Of a stretch of DNA of 64,000 bases, positions 45,569-51,686 are shown piece by piece. The stretch lies in contig NZ_LNFY01000010.1 in assembly GCF_011057685.1 (NCBI RefSeq), forward strand, positions 124,001 through 188,000, given 5' to 3'. The number at the start of each line of letters is the position of its first letter. Positions within the stretch are counted from its first letter, which is position 1. A model generated the notes under the pieces. That model had not been told where the DNA came from. It saw only the letters and a list, made by a program, of their open reading frames with translations, and ran no database searches. Both the position numbers and the translations under genes were made by a program. This stretch comes from Thermotoga sp. Ku-13t (GTDB lineage Bacteria; Thermotogota; Thermotogae; Thermotogales; DSM-5069).

Positions 45569-46519
45569 TCATTTGAACAGGATACTCACCGACAGATTCT
45601 TTCTGATCCGCATGATGGCTTCTCCCAAGAGGTTCGCTATGCTCACCACATGGAACTTACTTGGGAGACTCTTGTGGTACACCGTATCAGTTATGTAGAC
45701 TTCGTCTATCTGGCTGTTTTGAATCTTTTCCACGGCGTTACCTGAAAGGACACCGTGTGTTGCACAAGCAAGTATACGCTCTGCCCCGGCATTTTTCAAG
45801 GCCTGTGCCCCCTGGATCATGGTTCCACCGGTGTCGATTATGTCGTCGAACATCAATGCGATCTTTCCCTTGACGTCTCCTATTATGTTGACAATTTCCG
45901 CAACGTTGTCTGCCGGTCGACGCTTGTCGAGGATCGCCAGAGGTACCTGAAGCTTTTCTGCGAGTTTGCTGGCGCGCCTCACCGCTCCAACGTCTGGTGA
46001 AACAACTACGATGTCGTTTTTGATGTTTCCATACCTCTTCGTGATCTCTTCTATGAACACCGGGAAGCTGTAGAGGTTGTCGAGTGGTATATCGAAGAAA
46101 CCCTGTATCTGCTCGGCGTGGAGGTCTATCGTCAAAACGCGTGTGGCACCCGCCACAGTAATGATGTTCGCCACGAGCTTTGCCGTTATCGGATCTCTAC
46201 CTTTGGCTTTTCTGTCCTGCCGCGCATAGCCGAAGTACGGTATAACGACGGCGATGCTGTTCGCAGACGCACGTTTGAACGCATCCACCATCACCAACAG
46301 TTCCATGATGTTTTCGTTGACTGGTGGTGAGAAAGACTGAAGGACGAACACGTCGTGTCCCCTGACCGTTTCGTTTATCCGCACGTTTATCTCGCCGTCG
46401 GAAAACCTCGATACCTGACAGTCTCCAAGTCTCAGGCCCAGATACTCCGCAACTTTCTGCGCGAGGGGAAGGTTGGAGTTTCCTGCGAAAAACTTCAGAT
46501 CGTTACGTTGAAAAGGCAT
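45569..46519 (-). CDS. prs: Ribose-phosphate pyrophosphokinase
   Basis: A 316-residue PRPP synthetase using ATP and ribose 5-phosphate; PRPP supplies nucleotide, His and Trp synthesis. Class I features are DGEINVRI, YFGYARQDRKAKGRDPI and the PRPP loop VSPDVGAVRRA / FDDIIDTGGTM. I set the start at ATG 46519 (MPFQRNDLKFF), 7 bases after GGGAGGAG; the longer frame is inside glmU. The start overlaps the glmU end by 17 bases. Confidence 0.97.
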   Translation of the reverse strand: MPFQRNDLKFFAGNSNLPLAQKVAEYLGLRLGDCQVSRFSDGEINVRINETVRGHDVFVLQSFSPPVNENIMELLVMVDAFKRASANSIAVVIPYFGYARQDRKAKGRDPITAKLVANIITVAGATRVLTIDLHAEQIQGFFDIPLDNLYSFPVFIEEITKRYGNIKNDIVVVSPDVGAVRRASKLAEKLQVPLAILDKRRPADNVAEIVNIIGDVKGKIALMFDDIIDTGGTMIQGAQALKNAGAERILACATHGVLSGNAVEKIQNSQIDEVYITDTVYHKSLPSKFHVVSIANLLGEAIMRIRKNLSVSILFK

Positions 46520-47867
46520 TTCCCGACTCCTCCCTTTTTTTGATGACCCATCCAGGCTTGTTCGTCTGCCTGCAACGTGCGATGGCCAGGCTCCATTCTG
46601 GTACATCCTGGTTTATCACAGAACCTGCCGCAATGATGGCTCCTCTTCCAATCTTCACAGGCGCTATCAAAGAGCTGTTACTCCCTATGAAGGCTTCATC
46701 ATCGATGAACGTTGGATTCTTCTTTTTGCCATCGAAGTTACACGTTATGGTTCCTGCACCGATGTTCACATTCTCGCCGATGGTCGCATCTCCAAGGTAA
46801 GCGAGATGCTGTGCTTTGGTATGGGAACCTATCTTCGAGTTCTTGACTTCAACAAAGTTTCCGATCTTGACGTTCGATTTGAGCACAGTACCTTCCCTTA
46901 ACCTTGCGTATGGTCCCACGGACACGTCGTCTTCGATCGTTGCACCAACGCAATCCGAACTGATTATACGCACCCTGTTACCGACAGTACAGTTCTCTAT
47001 TCTCGTCATAGGACCTATAACGCACTGCTCACCTATCTTGGTTTTGCCGATCAGGAAAGTCATAGGATAAAGCGTGGTATCGGGACCGACTTCCACGTCC
47101 GCATCCACGTACGTGGTTTCCGGATCCAGAACTGTAACACCGTTGAGCATGAGTTCTTCGAGGATTTCTCTCTGCTTGATCTTTTGAACGAACGCCAGCT
47201 GCACCTTGTCGTTCACCCCAACGAATTGCTTCCAGTCGCGAACTTGGTGTATTCCGACTTTGTTCATCAGAGTCACTGCATCGGTTAAATAATACTCTTT
47301 CTTAGAATTGTCAGGCCTTATTTTTGGTAAAGCTTCGAGCAAGCTGCTCCCTCTGAAAACGTAGATGCCGGTGTTGACCTCCCGTATCGACTTTTCCTCG
47401 TCGCTCGCGTCGGATTCTTCCACGATCCTCACGAACTTTCCCGTTTGGTCCCTAAGTATTCTTCCATAACCGGTGGGGTCCGTCATCAGTGTTGAGACAA
47501 TTGTCACATCATTTTCATCAGTTTTGTGTCGATCTAAAACTTCCTTCAAAGTCTCAACCTTTATCAACGGCATATCACCGTAGAGAATCATCAGATCGTC
47601 GTTAGGATCTATAAAGTCCTGGGCACTCATCACTGCATGTGCGGTGCCAAGCTGTTCACCCTGGATACGAACCTCAACGTCGGGTGGAACAACCTGCATT
47701 ATTTGCTCGGCAGCGTGTCCCAGCACGACACAAACGTGTCCACCCAATTTCTTGGCAGTTTCGAGAACCCACAACAGCATCGCTCTGCCACACACTGGAT
47801 GCAAAACTTTTGGCAGTTTCGATTTCATCCTCACTCCCTTACCCGCGGCCAGGATCATCGTACGCAT
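46503..47867 (-). CDS. glmU: Bifunctional N-acetylglucosamine-1-phosphate uridyltransferase / glucosamine-1-phosphate acetyltransferase
   Basis: A 454-residue bifunctional enzyme making UDP-GlcNAc for peptidoglycan and envelope. The N-terminal pyrophosphorylase has ILAAGKGVRMKSKLPKVLH, GEQLGTAHAV and YGDMPL. The C-terminal left-handed beta-helix is visible from about residue 250 as hexapeptide repeats, with the acetyltransferase residues in KAQHLAYLGDATIGENVNIGAG broken across. It lies between priA and prs in an operon that also contains pth and rplY. Confidence 0.96.
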   Translation of the reverse strand: MRTMILAAGKGVRMKSKLPKVLHPVCGRAMLLWVLETAKKLGGHVCVVLGHAAEQIMQVVPPDVEVRIQGEQLGTAHAVMSAQDFIDPNDDLMILYGDMPLIKVETLKEVLDRHKTDENDVTIVSTLMTDPTGYGRILRDQTGKFVRIVEESDASDEEKSIREVNTGIYVFRGSSLLEALPKIRPDNSKKEYYLTDAVTLMNKVGIHQVRDWKQFVGVNDKVQLAFVQKIKQREILEELMLNGVTVLDPETTYVDADVEVGPDTTLYPMTFLIGKTKIGEQCVIGPMTRIENCTVGNRVRIISSDCVGATIEDDVSVGPYARLREGTVLKSNVKIGNFVEVKNSKIGSHTKAQHLAYLGDATIGENVNIGAGTITCNFDGKKKNPTFIDDEAFIGSNSSLIAPVKIGRGAIIAAGSVINQDVPEWSLAIARCRQTNKPGWVIKKREESGNAFST

Positions 47868-47879
47868 CCTTTCGCCCCC

Positions 47880-50084
47880 TCACCAGATTTTCGGTGGGTT
47901 AACGAAGATACGCCAGCCGACCTTTCCCGTTTTGATCAGGACCTCGTTGAGCCTGGACAGAGTTCTCGTAACATCGTTCGTCTTGATCAAAAAGTGGTGC
48001 CTGAATTTGCCTGATCTTTTGAATATCGGATGTTCTACAGGTCCCAGCACGGTTTCACCCTCGAGCGAGTCAACGCAGTATTTTGCGATCTCCCATCCCG
48101 TCTGGGGAAGATCGCTTTCGAGTACCACCTGGATCAGGTCGCAGAACGGAGGATAGTTCACCTCCTGTCTTTTCTTGAGCTCTTCCATGTAGAACTTTTC
48201 GACTTCCTGTTCGAAAACATCTTTCAGGAACGTATCCTGCGGATGGAACGTCTGGATCAGGATCCTGGCTGAATTGAAGTAGTTACGGATCTTTCTGAAC
48301 AGATGAAACATCCTGAGCCTGGTGTTGTAGTCGGGCTGGTTCAGCAAACCGTCGTAATCGAGGATGGATATCAAACCCACTCTGCTCGTGTCGAAGCCAT
48401 GGACGACAAGCTTGCTGCCTATGAGGATATCGATTTCTCCAGCTTGAAGCTTGGCAAACTGTTCCTGAACTTCGAATGGTTCAAACTCCTCCGATTCCAC
48501 CCTTACGATCCTCGCGTTTGGAAAATGGTACTTCATCAGTTTTTCGATCCTCTCCGTGCCGACACCCTTGGGATAGAGTGCCCTGGCGCCGCAGTTTGGA
48601 CACTCGGCCTGAGCTTTCTGCGTGTATCCGCACTGGTGGCATTTGAAGACGTTTTCCGACCTGTGAAAGCTGAGCGTGACATCGCAGTTAGGGCACATCA
48701 GCACGTAGTTACACGCGAAACACAACACGTAAGGTGCAAATCCTTTTCTTCGCACGAGCATTACAACCGAACGACCTTCACACATCGTTTCTTCAACGTT
48801 TCTGATGAGTTCTTCAGAAAGGATGGACTTGCTGTGCCTGACGTCCACGATATTGATGCTCGATTCGTGCGGTTGAGGAACTGAGATTCTGAACCAGTTG
48901 AAACGCTCTCTTCTGTGAAAATCGATGAGCCTTGGTTCGCACGAGGCCAGAACAAGTGGGATGTTTCTCAGTTTCGCTCTCATTTCGATCAGTTCGATCG
49001 CGTCGTACACTGGATCTTCGAACTGGTAGTACGCATCCTCGTCACTTTCCTCAACGACGATCAAACCAAGATTCTTCACCGGCAGAAACGCCGCGATTCT
49101 TGTGCCAATGACCAGCTGAACCGCGCCACTCACCGCATCCAGCCAAACTTTTGCCCTTTGAGATTTCGACATACGTGCGTGATAGACGTTCACGTTCACA
49201 TCGAGGAATCTTCTTATGAAACCTGCGGTCACGTAAGCAAGGGAGGAAAATGGTACTAAGAAGAGCACCGCCTTTCCCTCGTCGACGACGCTCTCGATCA
49301 GTTTGACGATCCTGCGAACGCGCGCTTCCATCGTGTGACCCGTCAGGATGAGGTCGGTTTGTGGCAGGGCCTCCTCTGGGTTCCCCCACTCACGTGAACC
49401 TTCCATGTGCGGCGGTAAAAACTGAGTCAGTTCGATGAGACCTCTTTGCTGCATGTGCCTGAGCTTCTTGGGGTTGATACCGAAAGATTCGACCAGTTGT
49501 TCCACGGTTGCATAGTTGTTGGTCAGCAGATAACCGATCACGTCGTACTCGGTTTCATCGTCAGCGTGGGACAACGCTCTGAGTCCACCTTTAACGACCA
49601 CGTACCATTTCGAGAAGCGGGGTTTCGGCATCTTGCGGCCAAAGCATTTCCTCAGTCGGACGTAACCTCTGTTCAAATAGCCTTTGAGAGTCTTGTGACC
49701 GTAACGTTCCAGAAATTCCTCCAGTGGGAGCGACTCGAAACCGAGCATGGGTGTGAGCGATTCCACGATCGTTTCTGCATAATCATCTATGAACGATGGG
49801 AAGGCGAGATCGAAGAGCAAGCCAGGTGGTGAGAAAAATTTCTCTGAAATGATTCTGATCGCCTCAACGTCGGCCCGGTCCAGGAAACTCGCTCGATCGA
49901 GTCTTTGAGTGATCTCCTTGAGGCTGTGATCGGCGGGTCGATCTGAAGCTCGAACGACGTAACCCATCGTTTTTCTTCCATGAAAGTCGACGAGTACCCG
50001 TTCTCCAGGTTCGAGTGGCTCATGACTCGTATAAGAGTAAAGACAGCGGAGCGGAACTTTTGAGATCGCCAGATCGTACACCAT
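47880..50084 (-). CDS. priA: Primosomal protein N' (PriA) with degenerate helicase motifs
   Basis: A 734-residue PriA that by position and overall alignment should load the replisome at stalled forks. The zinc region is intact, with CFAC, CPNC, CHQC and CPNC pairs between about residues 450 and 495. The ATPase core is degraded: the Walker A site reads LTGHTMEARV where GSGKT is expected, motif II reads VEESDEDAYYQF where DEEH is expected, and the motif VI arginines of the GRAGR type are missing in MFHLFRKIRNYF. The 3'-DNA-binding N-terminus is present. It probably acts without helicase activity. No frameshift is seen, so this is evolved loss, not a broken gene. Confidence 0.93.
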   Translation of the reverse strand: MVYDLAISKVPLRCLYSYTSHEPLEPGERVLVDFHGRKTMGYVVRASDRPADHSLKEITQRLDRASFLDRADVEAIRIISEKFFSPPGLLFDLAFPSFIDDYAETIVESLTPMLGFESLPLEEFLERYGHKTLKGYLNRGYVRLRKCFGRKMPKPRFSKWYVVVKGGLRALSHADDETEYDVIGYLLTNNYATVEQLVESFGINPKKLRHMQQRGLIELTQFLPPHMEGSREWGNPEEALPQTDLILTGHTMEARVRRIVKLIESVVDEGKAVLFLVPFSSLAYVTAGFIRRFLDVNVNVYHARMSKSQRAKVWLDAVSGAVQLVIGTRIAAFLPVKNLGLIVVEESDEDAYYQFEDPVYDAIELIEMRAKLRNIPLVLASCEPRLIDFHRRERFNWFRISVPQPHESSINIVDVRHSKSILSEELIRNVEETMCEGRSVVMLVRRKGFAPYVLCFACNYVLMCPNCDVTLSFHRSENVFKCHQCGYTQKAQAECPNCGARALYPKGVGTERIEKLMKYHFPNARIVRVESEEFEPFEVQEQFAKLQAGEIDILIGSKLVVHGFDTSRVGLISILDYDGLLNQPDYNTRLRMFHLFRKIRNYFNSARILIQTFHPQDTFLKDVFEQEVEKFYMEELKKRQEVNYPPFCDLIQVVLESDLPQTGWEIAKYCVDSLEGETVLGPVEHPIFKRSGKFRHHFLIKTNDVTRTLSRLNEVLIKTGKVGWRIFVNPPKIW

Positions 50085-50313: not shown

Positions 50314-51686
<1,373 letters not shown>

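Follow-up and report, generated by a model that had tools for sequence, protein, structure and literature searches.

What the helicase activity of PriA is for is an open question, since this activity is dispensable for viability of E. coli, yet it is conserved in nearly all bacteria (PMC4504706). In E. coli, recognition of the fork involves several PriA domains; where a duplex lagging arm requires it, PriA unwinds this arm, and it then closes its pore around the lagging-strand single-stranded DNA (ssDNA) for recruitment of PriB, DnaT, and DnaB (PMC10175261; PMC13377028). The priA gene of Thermotoga sp. Ku-13t raises this question from the other side: can replication be restarted with a PriA that does not unwind DNA? 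The gene is located in a stretch of 64,000 nucleotides of contig NZ_LNFY01000010.1, which was analysed as a whole and is referred to as the window. An earlier note on this DNA had described the encoded protein as a PriA with intact zinc site and lost ATPase motifs.

The score of Ku-13t PriA against the whole-protein profile TIGR00595 was 350.9 bits, above the cut-off of 230.35, and the profiles of the 3'-DNA-binding, zinc, and C-terminal domains (PF17764, PF18319, and PF18074) were all matched above cut-off. By genome search, PriA was found to be single-copy in the 2.08 Mb Ku-13t genome, and one PriA per genome was also observed across members of the GTDB family of Ku-13t (the Ku-13t family; its sisters, the other two families of the order, are f2 and f3). 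An active PriA paralogue was rejected, because the remaining matches in Ku-13t scored low, and their lengths were those of Mfd and UvrB. The features of the locus are listed in Table 1. Farther downstream, the longest prs frame (45569-46606, minus strand) overlaps glmU by about 100 bases, and the true prs start is probably internal.

Table 1. Features in and around priA of Thermotoga sp. Ku-13t (positions in the window; residues of the PriA protein)
Feature	Position	Strand	Residues	Remarks
priA coding sequence	47880..50084	-		ATG open reading frame, 734 aa; PriA orthologue, catalytic helicase motifs lost; TIGR00595 match
3'-DNA-binding domain PF17764, kept	49797..50060	-	9-96	49.2 bits, cut-off 22.7
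Motif I (Walker A), degenerate	49317..49340	-	249-256	GHTMEARV; E. coli alignment and family census
Motif II (Walker B), degenerate	49041..49052	-	345-348	EESD; E. coli alignment and family census
Segment directly after motif II, kept	49005..49028	-	353-360	YQFEDPVY; at the position of the E. coli aromatic-rich loop; alignment
Motif III, degenerate	48933..48944	-	381-384	SCEP (elsewhere SATP); alignment
Cysteine-rich zinc region, kept	48591..48722	-	455-498	eight Cys; profile and alignment
Motif V, degenerate	48396..48419	-	556-563	GSKLVVHG, Lys562 lost; alignment
Motif VI, degenerate	48267..48293	-	598-606	GRxxR lost and 4-aa deletion; alignment
PriA C-terminal domain PF18074, kept	47895..48149	-		Pfam profile
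glmU, downstream neighbour	46503..47867	-		adjoins priA in 10/10 members of the Ku-13t family
pyrR, upstream neighbour	50314..50847	-		adjoins priA in 10/10 members of the Ku-13t family

In the alignment with E. coli PriA, each of the SF2 ATPase motifs I, II, V, and VI was found in a degenerate form, and the protein thus lacks the motif set of an active helicase. The segment opposite the E. coli Walker A sequence GVTGSGKT (G224-T231) reads TGHTMEARV (residues 248-256), with Arg255 opposite K230, and EESD (345-348) is aligned with the motif II sequence DEEH (320-323). In motif III, SCE replaces SAT, and in motif V, His replaces the Lys of E. coli K544. Motif VI reads KIRNYFN----SA for the E. 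coli sequence QVAGRAGRAGKQG (QVAGRAGR core); both motif arginines are gone, and four residues are deleted. The coordinates of the reading frame given in the earlier note are exact, and the replacements of Walker A and of DEEH and the missing motif VI arginines are as the note had described them, the deletion being an addition. Its statement that the eight zinc cysteines and the overall length are kept was also borne out: the length is 734 aa compared with 732 aa in E. coli, and Cys455, 458, 464, 467, 482, 485, 495, and 498 are present not only in Ku-13t (8/8) but in 10/10 members of the family. The combination of a Walker Lys changed to Arg, a degenerate Walker B, and an otherwise complete PriA is that of a pseudohelicase of the D. 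radiodurans type. Judged from its sequence, the Ku-13t protein is to be filed as a PriA orthologue, not as a PriA helicase.

How far this state extends was determined by a census of the phylum, which covered 103 genomes, 98 of them with a PriA match. The Ku-13t family contributed 10 genomes with detectable priA, belonging to three genera; PriA was not matched in an eleventh, which is 71% complete. Motifs I and II, the motif V Lys, and motif VI were lost in all 10 PriA sequences of this family. G[ST]GKT was found in 87/87 other sequences covering motif I, and DExH or DExQ likewise in 87/87 covering motif II, and the motifs were intact in f2, f3, and all remaining families of the phylum. The alignment across Thermotogota proposed in the earlier note therefore gave a loss common to the Ku-13t family and absent elsewhere; its description of a Thermotogales-type state applies to this family, in which the loss is fixed, but not to Thermotogales or Thermotogota in general. 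These observations indicate that loss of the helicase motifs is confined to one family. Chance or an assembly error was rejected, because the same state is found in 10 separate genomes and in 0/87 other sequences of the phylum covering the motif. The PriA proteins of f2 and f3 resemble Ku-13t PriA in domain order and in the eight zinc cysteines, with 31-37% identity, but have intact GxGKT, DExH/Q, motif V Lys, and motif VI Arg, and glmU and pyrR were not found adjoining their genes. In a literature search with subscription journals mostly outside its reach, no earlier report of motif loss in PriA of the Ku-13t family was found.

In the maximum-likelihood tree, the ten PriA sequences of the Ku-13t family formed one clade (100/100), sister to f2 plus f3, which argues for vertical descent and a single loss on the stem of the family. 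Horizontal origin of priA was rejected, as the tree follows the families. The stem is long, 0.75 changes per column. By trees for each domain, the stem took 3.4% of total tree length for the helicase lobes versus 0.6% for the 3'-binding, zinc, and C-terminal domains combined, a concentration of stem change in the lobes of about fivefold; the zinc region alone gave 2.4%, a noisy value based on 50 columns. Identity in lobe 1 was 29-31% between the Ku-13t genus and the sister families and 46% between the sister families, and no comparable gap was observed for the 3'-binding and C-terminal domains. Within the Ku-13t family, dN/dS of the closest pair was 0.10 and that of other pairs 0.08-0.12, lobes included; the intact relatives gave 0.05-0.13. 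Thus, priA of this family is now under ordinary purifying selection. Among 67 columns that are near-invariant outside the family, 30 were lost within it and 37 were kept. The lost columns fell mostly in the helicase lobes (27/30; Fisher p 0.0014, which is a guide only because columns are not independent). The kept columns include the eight Cys, His302, Arg329, the conserved C-terminal prolines, and Tyr360, which stands just after motif II at the position of the aromatic-rich loop.

Could such a protein still unwind DNA as an active helicase, with motifs that are atypical or have moved elsewhere? His302 and the GTR residues preceding motif II are indeed kept, but a search of the whole Ku-13t protein gave no GK[TS] at all, and hence no displaced, intact GKT, which had been set beforehand as the observation against motif loss. 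Some relatives have a GKS at residue 272, but this was rejected as a displaced P-loop, as it belongs to the strand before motif Ia and is without the Gxxxx lead. Since motifs I, II, V, and VI are in addition degenerate together and drift among members, an active helicase is barely conceivable. The opposite reading, in which PriA has dropped out of restart and the gene either serves some other role or is slowly decaying, would fit the disappearance of the core catalytic motifs. It is, however, highly unlikely in view of the full-length open frame in 10/10 members, the constraint on both lobes, and the retention of DNA-binding and zinc residues; a decaying gene as such was rejected by the dN/dS of about 0.1.

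The lost columns themselves are informative on the fate of the ATP site. One identical replacement in 10/10 was observed for only two of the 30, Lys255 to Arg and Asp345 to Glu, and the rest drift, including the Walker A glycines and Mg-binding Thr256, which is Val, Leu, or Phe depending on the member. Because only these two columns share one residue throughout, the uniform Arg255 and Glu345 suggest selection for a filled pocket, perhaps by a salt bridge, and they probably close the empty nucleotide pocket. It is possible, though rather less than probable, that the dead ATP site has been rebuilt as an Arg255-Glu345 latch holding the lobes in the fork-bound, ssDNA-clamping state; restart by DciA and DnaB would then be switched by fork shape alone, with no ATP-driven PriA step. 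The same uniformity could reflect an ATP-binding switch without hydrolysis, in which Arg255 and Glu345 would hold the nucleotide and binding alone would move the lobes and the zinc region. Such a switch is clearly improbable, however, given that the glycines and Thr256 are lost as well and vary among members, and that K230R alone abolishes both ATPase and helicase activities of E. coli PriA (PMC4504706). Structure prediction was poor (mean pLDDT 43.1 with a two-row alignment), and no conclusion rests on the model; relatives for the structure alignment were not found in viral contigs, and named genome contigs gave one distant locus only. E. coli Asp17 of the 3'-binding domain and Trp186 of the linker were not conserved in the Thermotogota sequences inspected, and thus the E. 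coli model of fork binding may hold only in part.

The closest known parallel is PriA of Deinococcus-Thermus, in which Walker A and B are degenerate, the Walker Lys is changed to Arg, and the remaining protein is kept; DciA is present in both groups. D. radiodurans PriA exhibits no measurable ATPase and about 4% unwinding, versus 56% for E. coli PriA, but near-normal binding to ssDNA and forks, with evidence of DnaB contact (PMC4504706), in agreement with the helicase deficiency that the earlier note had attributed to Deinococcus PriA. Deinococcus-Thermus differs in being another phylum. As the Ku-13t family is nested in a phylum otherwise keeping all motifs, its loss is independent of that in Deinococcus-Thermus; the PriA pseudohelicase is thus a known type, of which this family is, by its phylogenetic position, a separate and independent instance. 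Actinobacterial PriA, which the earlier note also named as helicase-deficient, would likewise lack helicase motifs. No confirmation of the actinobacterial motif loss was found in the literature searched, and Ku-13t PriA scored at most 103 bits with the actinobacterial models (PRK14873), far below its scores with ordinary PriA models. The second parallel is the pair of E. coli mutants K230R and K230A, helicase-dead and primosome-competent, of which K230R carries the same Lys-to-Arg change at the same aligned residue. The K230R allele priA300 reportedly does not prevent primosome assembly (PMC7326373) and suppresses recG defects (PMC7326373; PMC4752480), and K230A has been used in DnaB-loading assays (PMC10175261). 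These mutants make it natural to infer a restart in which PriA does not unwind DNA, although they are laboratory alleles with a single change, and E. coli uses PriB, DnaT, and DnaC.

DnaB, DciA, and RecG were detected in 10/10 genomes of the Ku-13t family. The IstB-type model for the DnaC/DnaI loader gave only weak matches in this family, of the sizes of DnaA or other AAA+ proteins, and DciA is therefore the presumed partner as judged from gene content. As for IS21-type helper genes, five equal-score copies were observed in G024 of f3 and partial or broken copies in G026, G028, and G030, and none was seen in the Ku-13t family. With respect to helicases, each genome of the Ku-13t family encodes one strong UvrD-type protein (1-4 matches in the sisters) and 4-11 DEAD-type matches (8-15 in the sisters); SNF2 matches were found in two of its genomes only, and RadA-like proteins are present. 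The search for a separate restart helicase thus gave no clade-specific gain among the UvrD-type, DEAD, AAA_12, and SNF2 families, the counts being equal to or below those of the sisters, and a clade-specific replacement from these four families was rejected. Recruitment of another helicase in the Ku-13t family for opening the lagging strand at restart is nevertheless worth weighing, as duplex lagging arms still need opening, and RecG, UvrD-type, and RadA-like proteins are available. The lack of gain speaks against it, but the enzyme could be an existing one or belong to a family outside these four; we regard such recruitment as somewhat unlikely. Two further differences in helicase content were observed. 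A Dna2/Upf1-like helicase of about 650 aa (AAA_12, PF13087) is present in the sampled f2 genomes and several f3 genomes and missing from the Ku-13t family; it is also missing from G020 and G024 of f3, both with intact PriA, and so the losses of AAA_12 and of the PriA motifs are not strictly linked. A second large UvrD-type protein of about 1000-1200 aa was found in f3 (G012, G014, G016, G018, G022, G024, G026, G028, and G030) and not in the other two families.

The most probable reading, to which we assign a probability of about 0.82, is that Ku-13t PriA is an independently evolved pseudohelicase that arose once at the base of the family and has been kept as a structural, fork-recognizing restart factor. 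By analogy with D. radiodurans PriA, which shares the Lys-to-Arg change, it would serve in fork recognition and as a loading platform. PriA would bind the abandoned fork or D-loop through its 3'-binding, winged-helix, and C-terminal domains, and the zinc region together with the dead helicase lobes would clamp the lagging strand where it is already single-stranded. The bound protein would then present a platform for DnaB loading, presumably with DciA; on a duplex lagging arm, RecG, the single UvrD-type helicase, or nucleases would have to expose the ssDNA. The restart route without PriA unwinding suggested in the earlier note thus stands as the natural reading of a motif loss that is real and fixed in the family, while the clade-specific restart helicase that might have accompanied it was not found among the four helicase families searched.

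PriA of the Ku-13t family should therefore not be annotated as a restart helicase. The Lys-to-Arg change, the same as in Deinococcus-Thermus, points to convergence. A second independent loss, family-wide and amid close relatives with intact motifs, constitutes a natural experiment, a matched comparison of intact with degenerate PriA between related thermophiles that share the genes for DnaB, DciA, and RecG. Replication restart in cells of the Ku-13t family probably relies on a clamp that recognizes the fork but does not unwind it.
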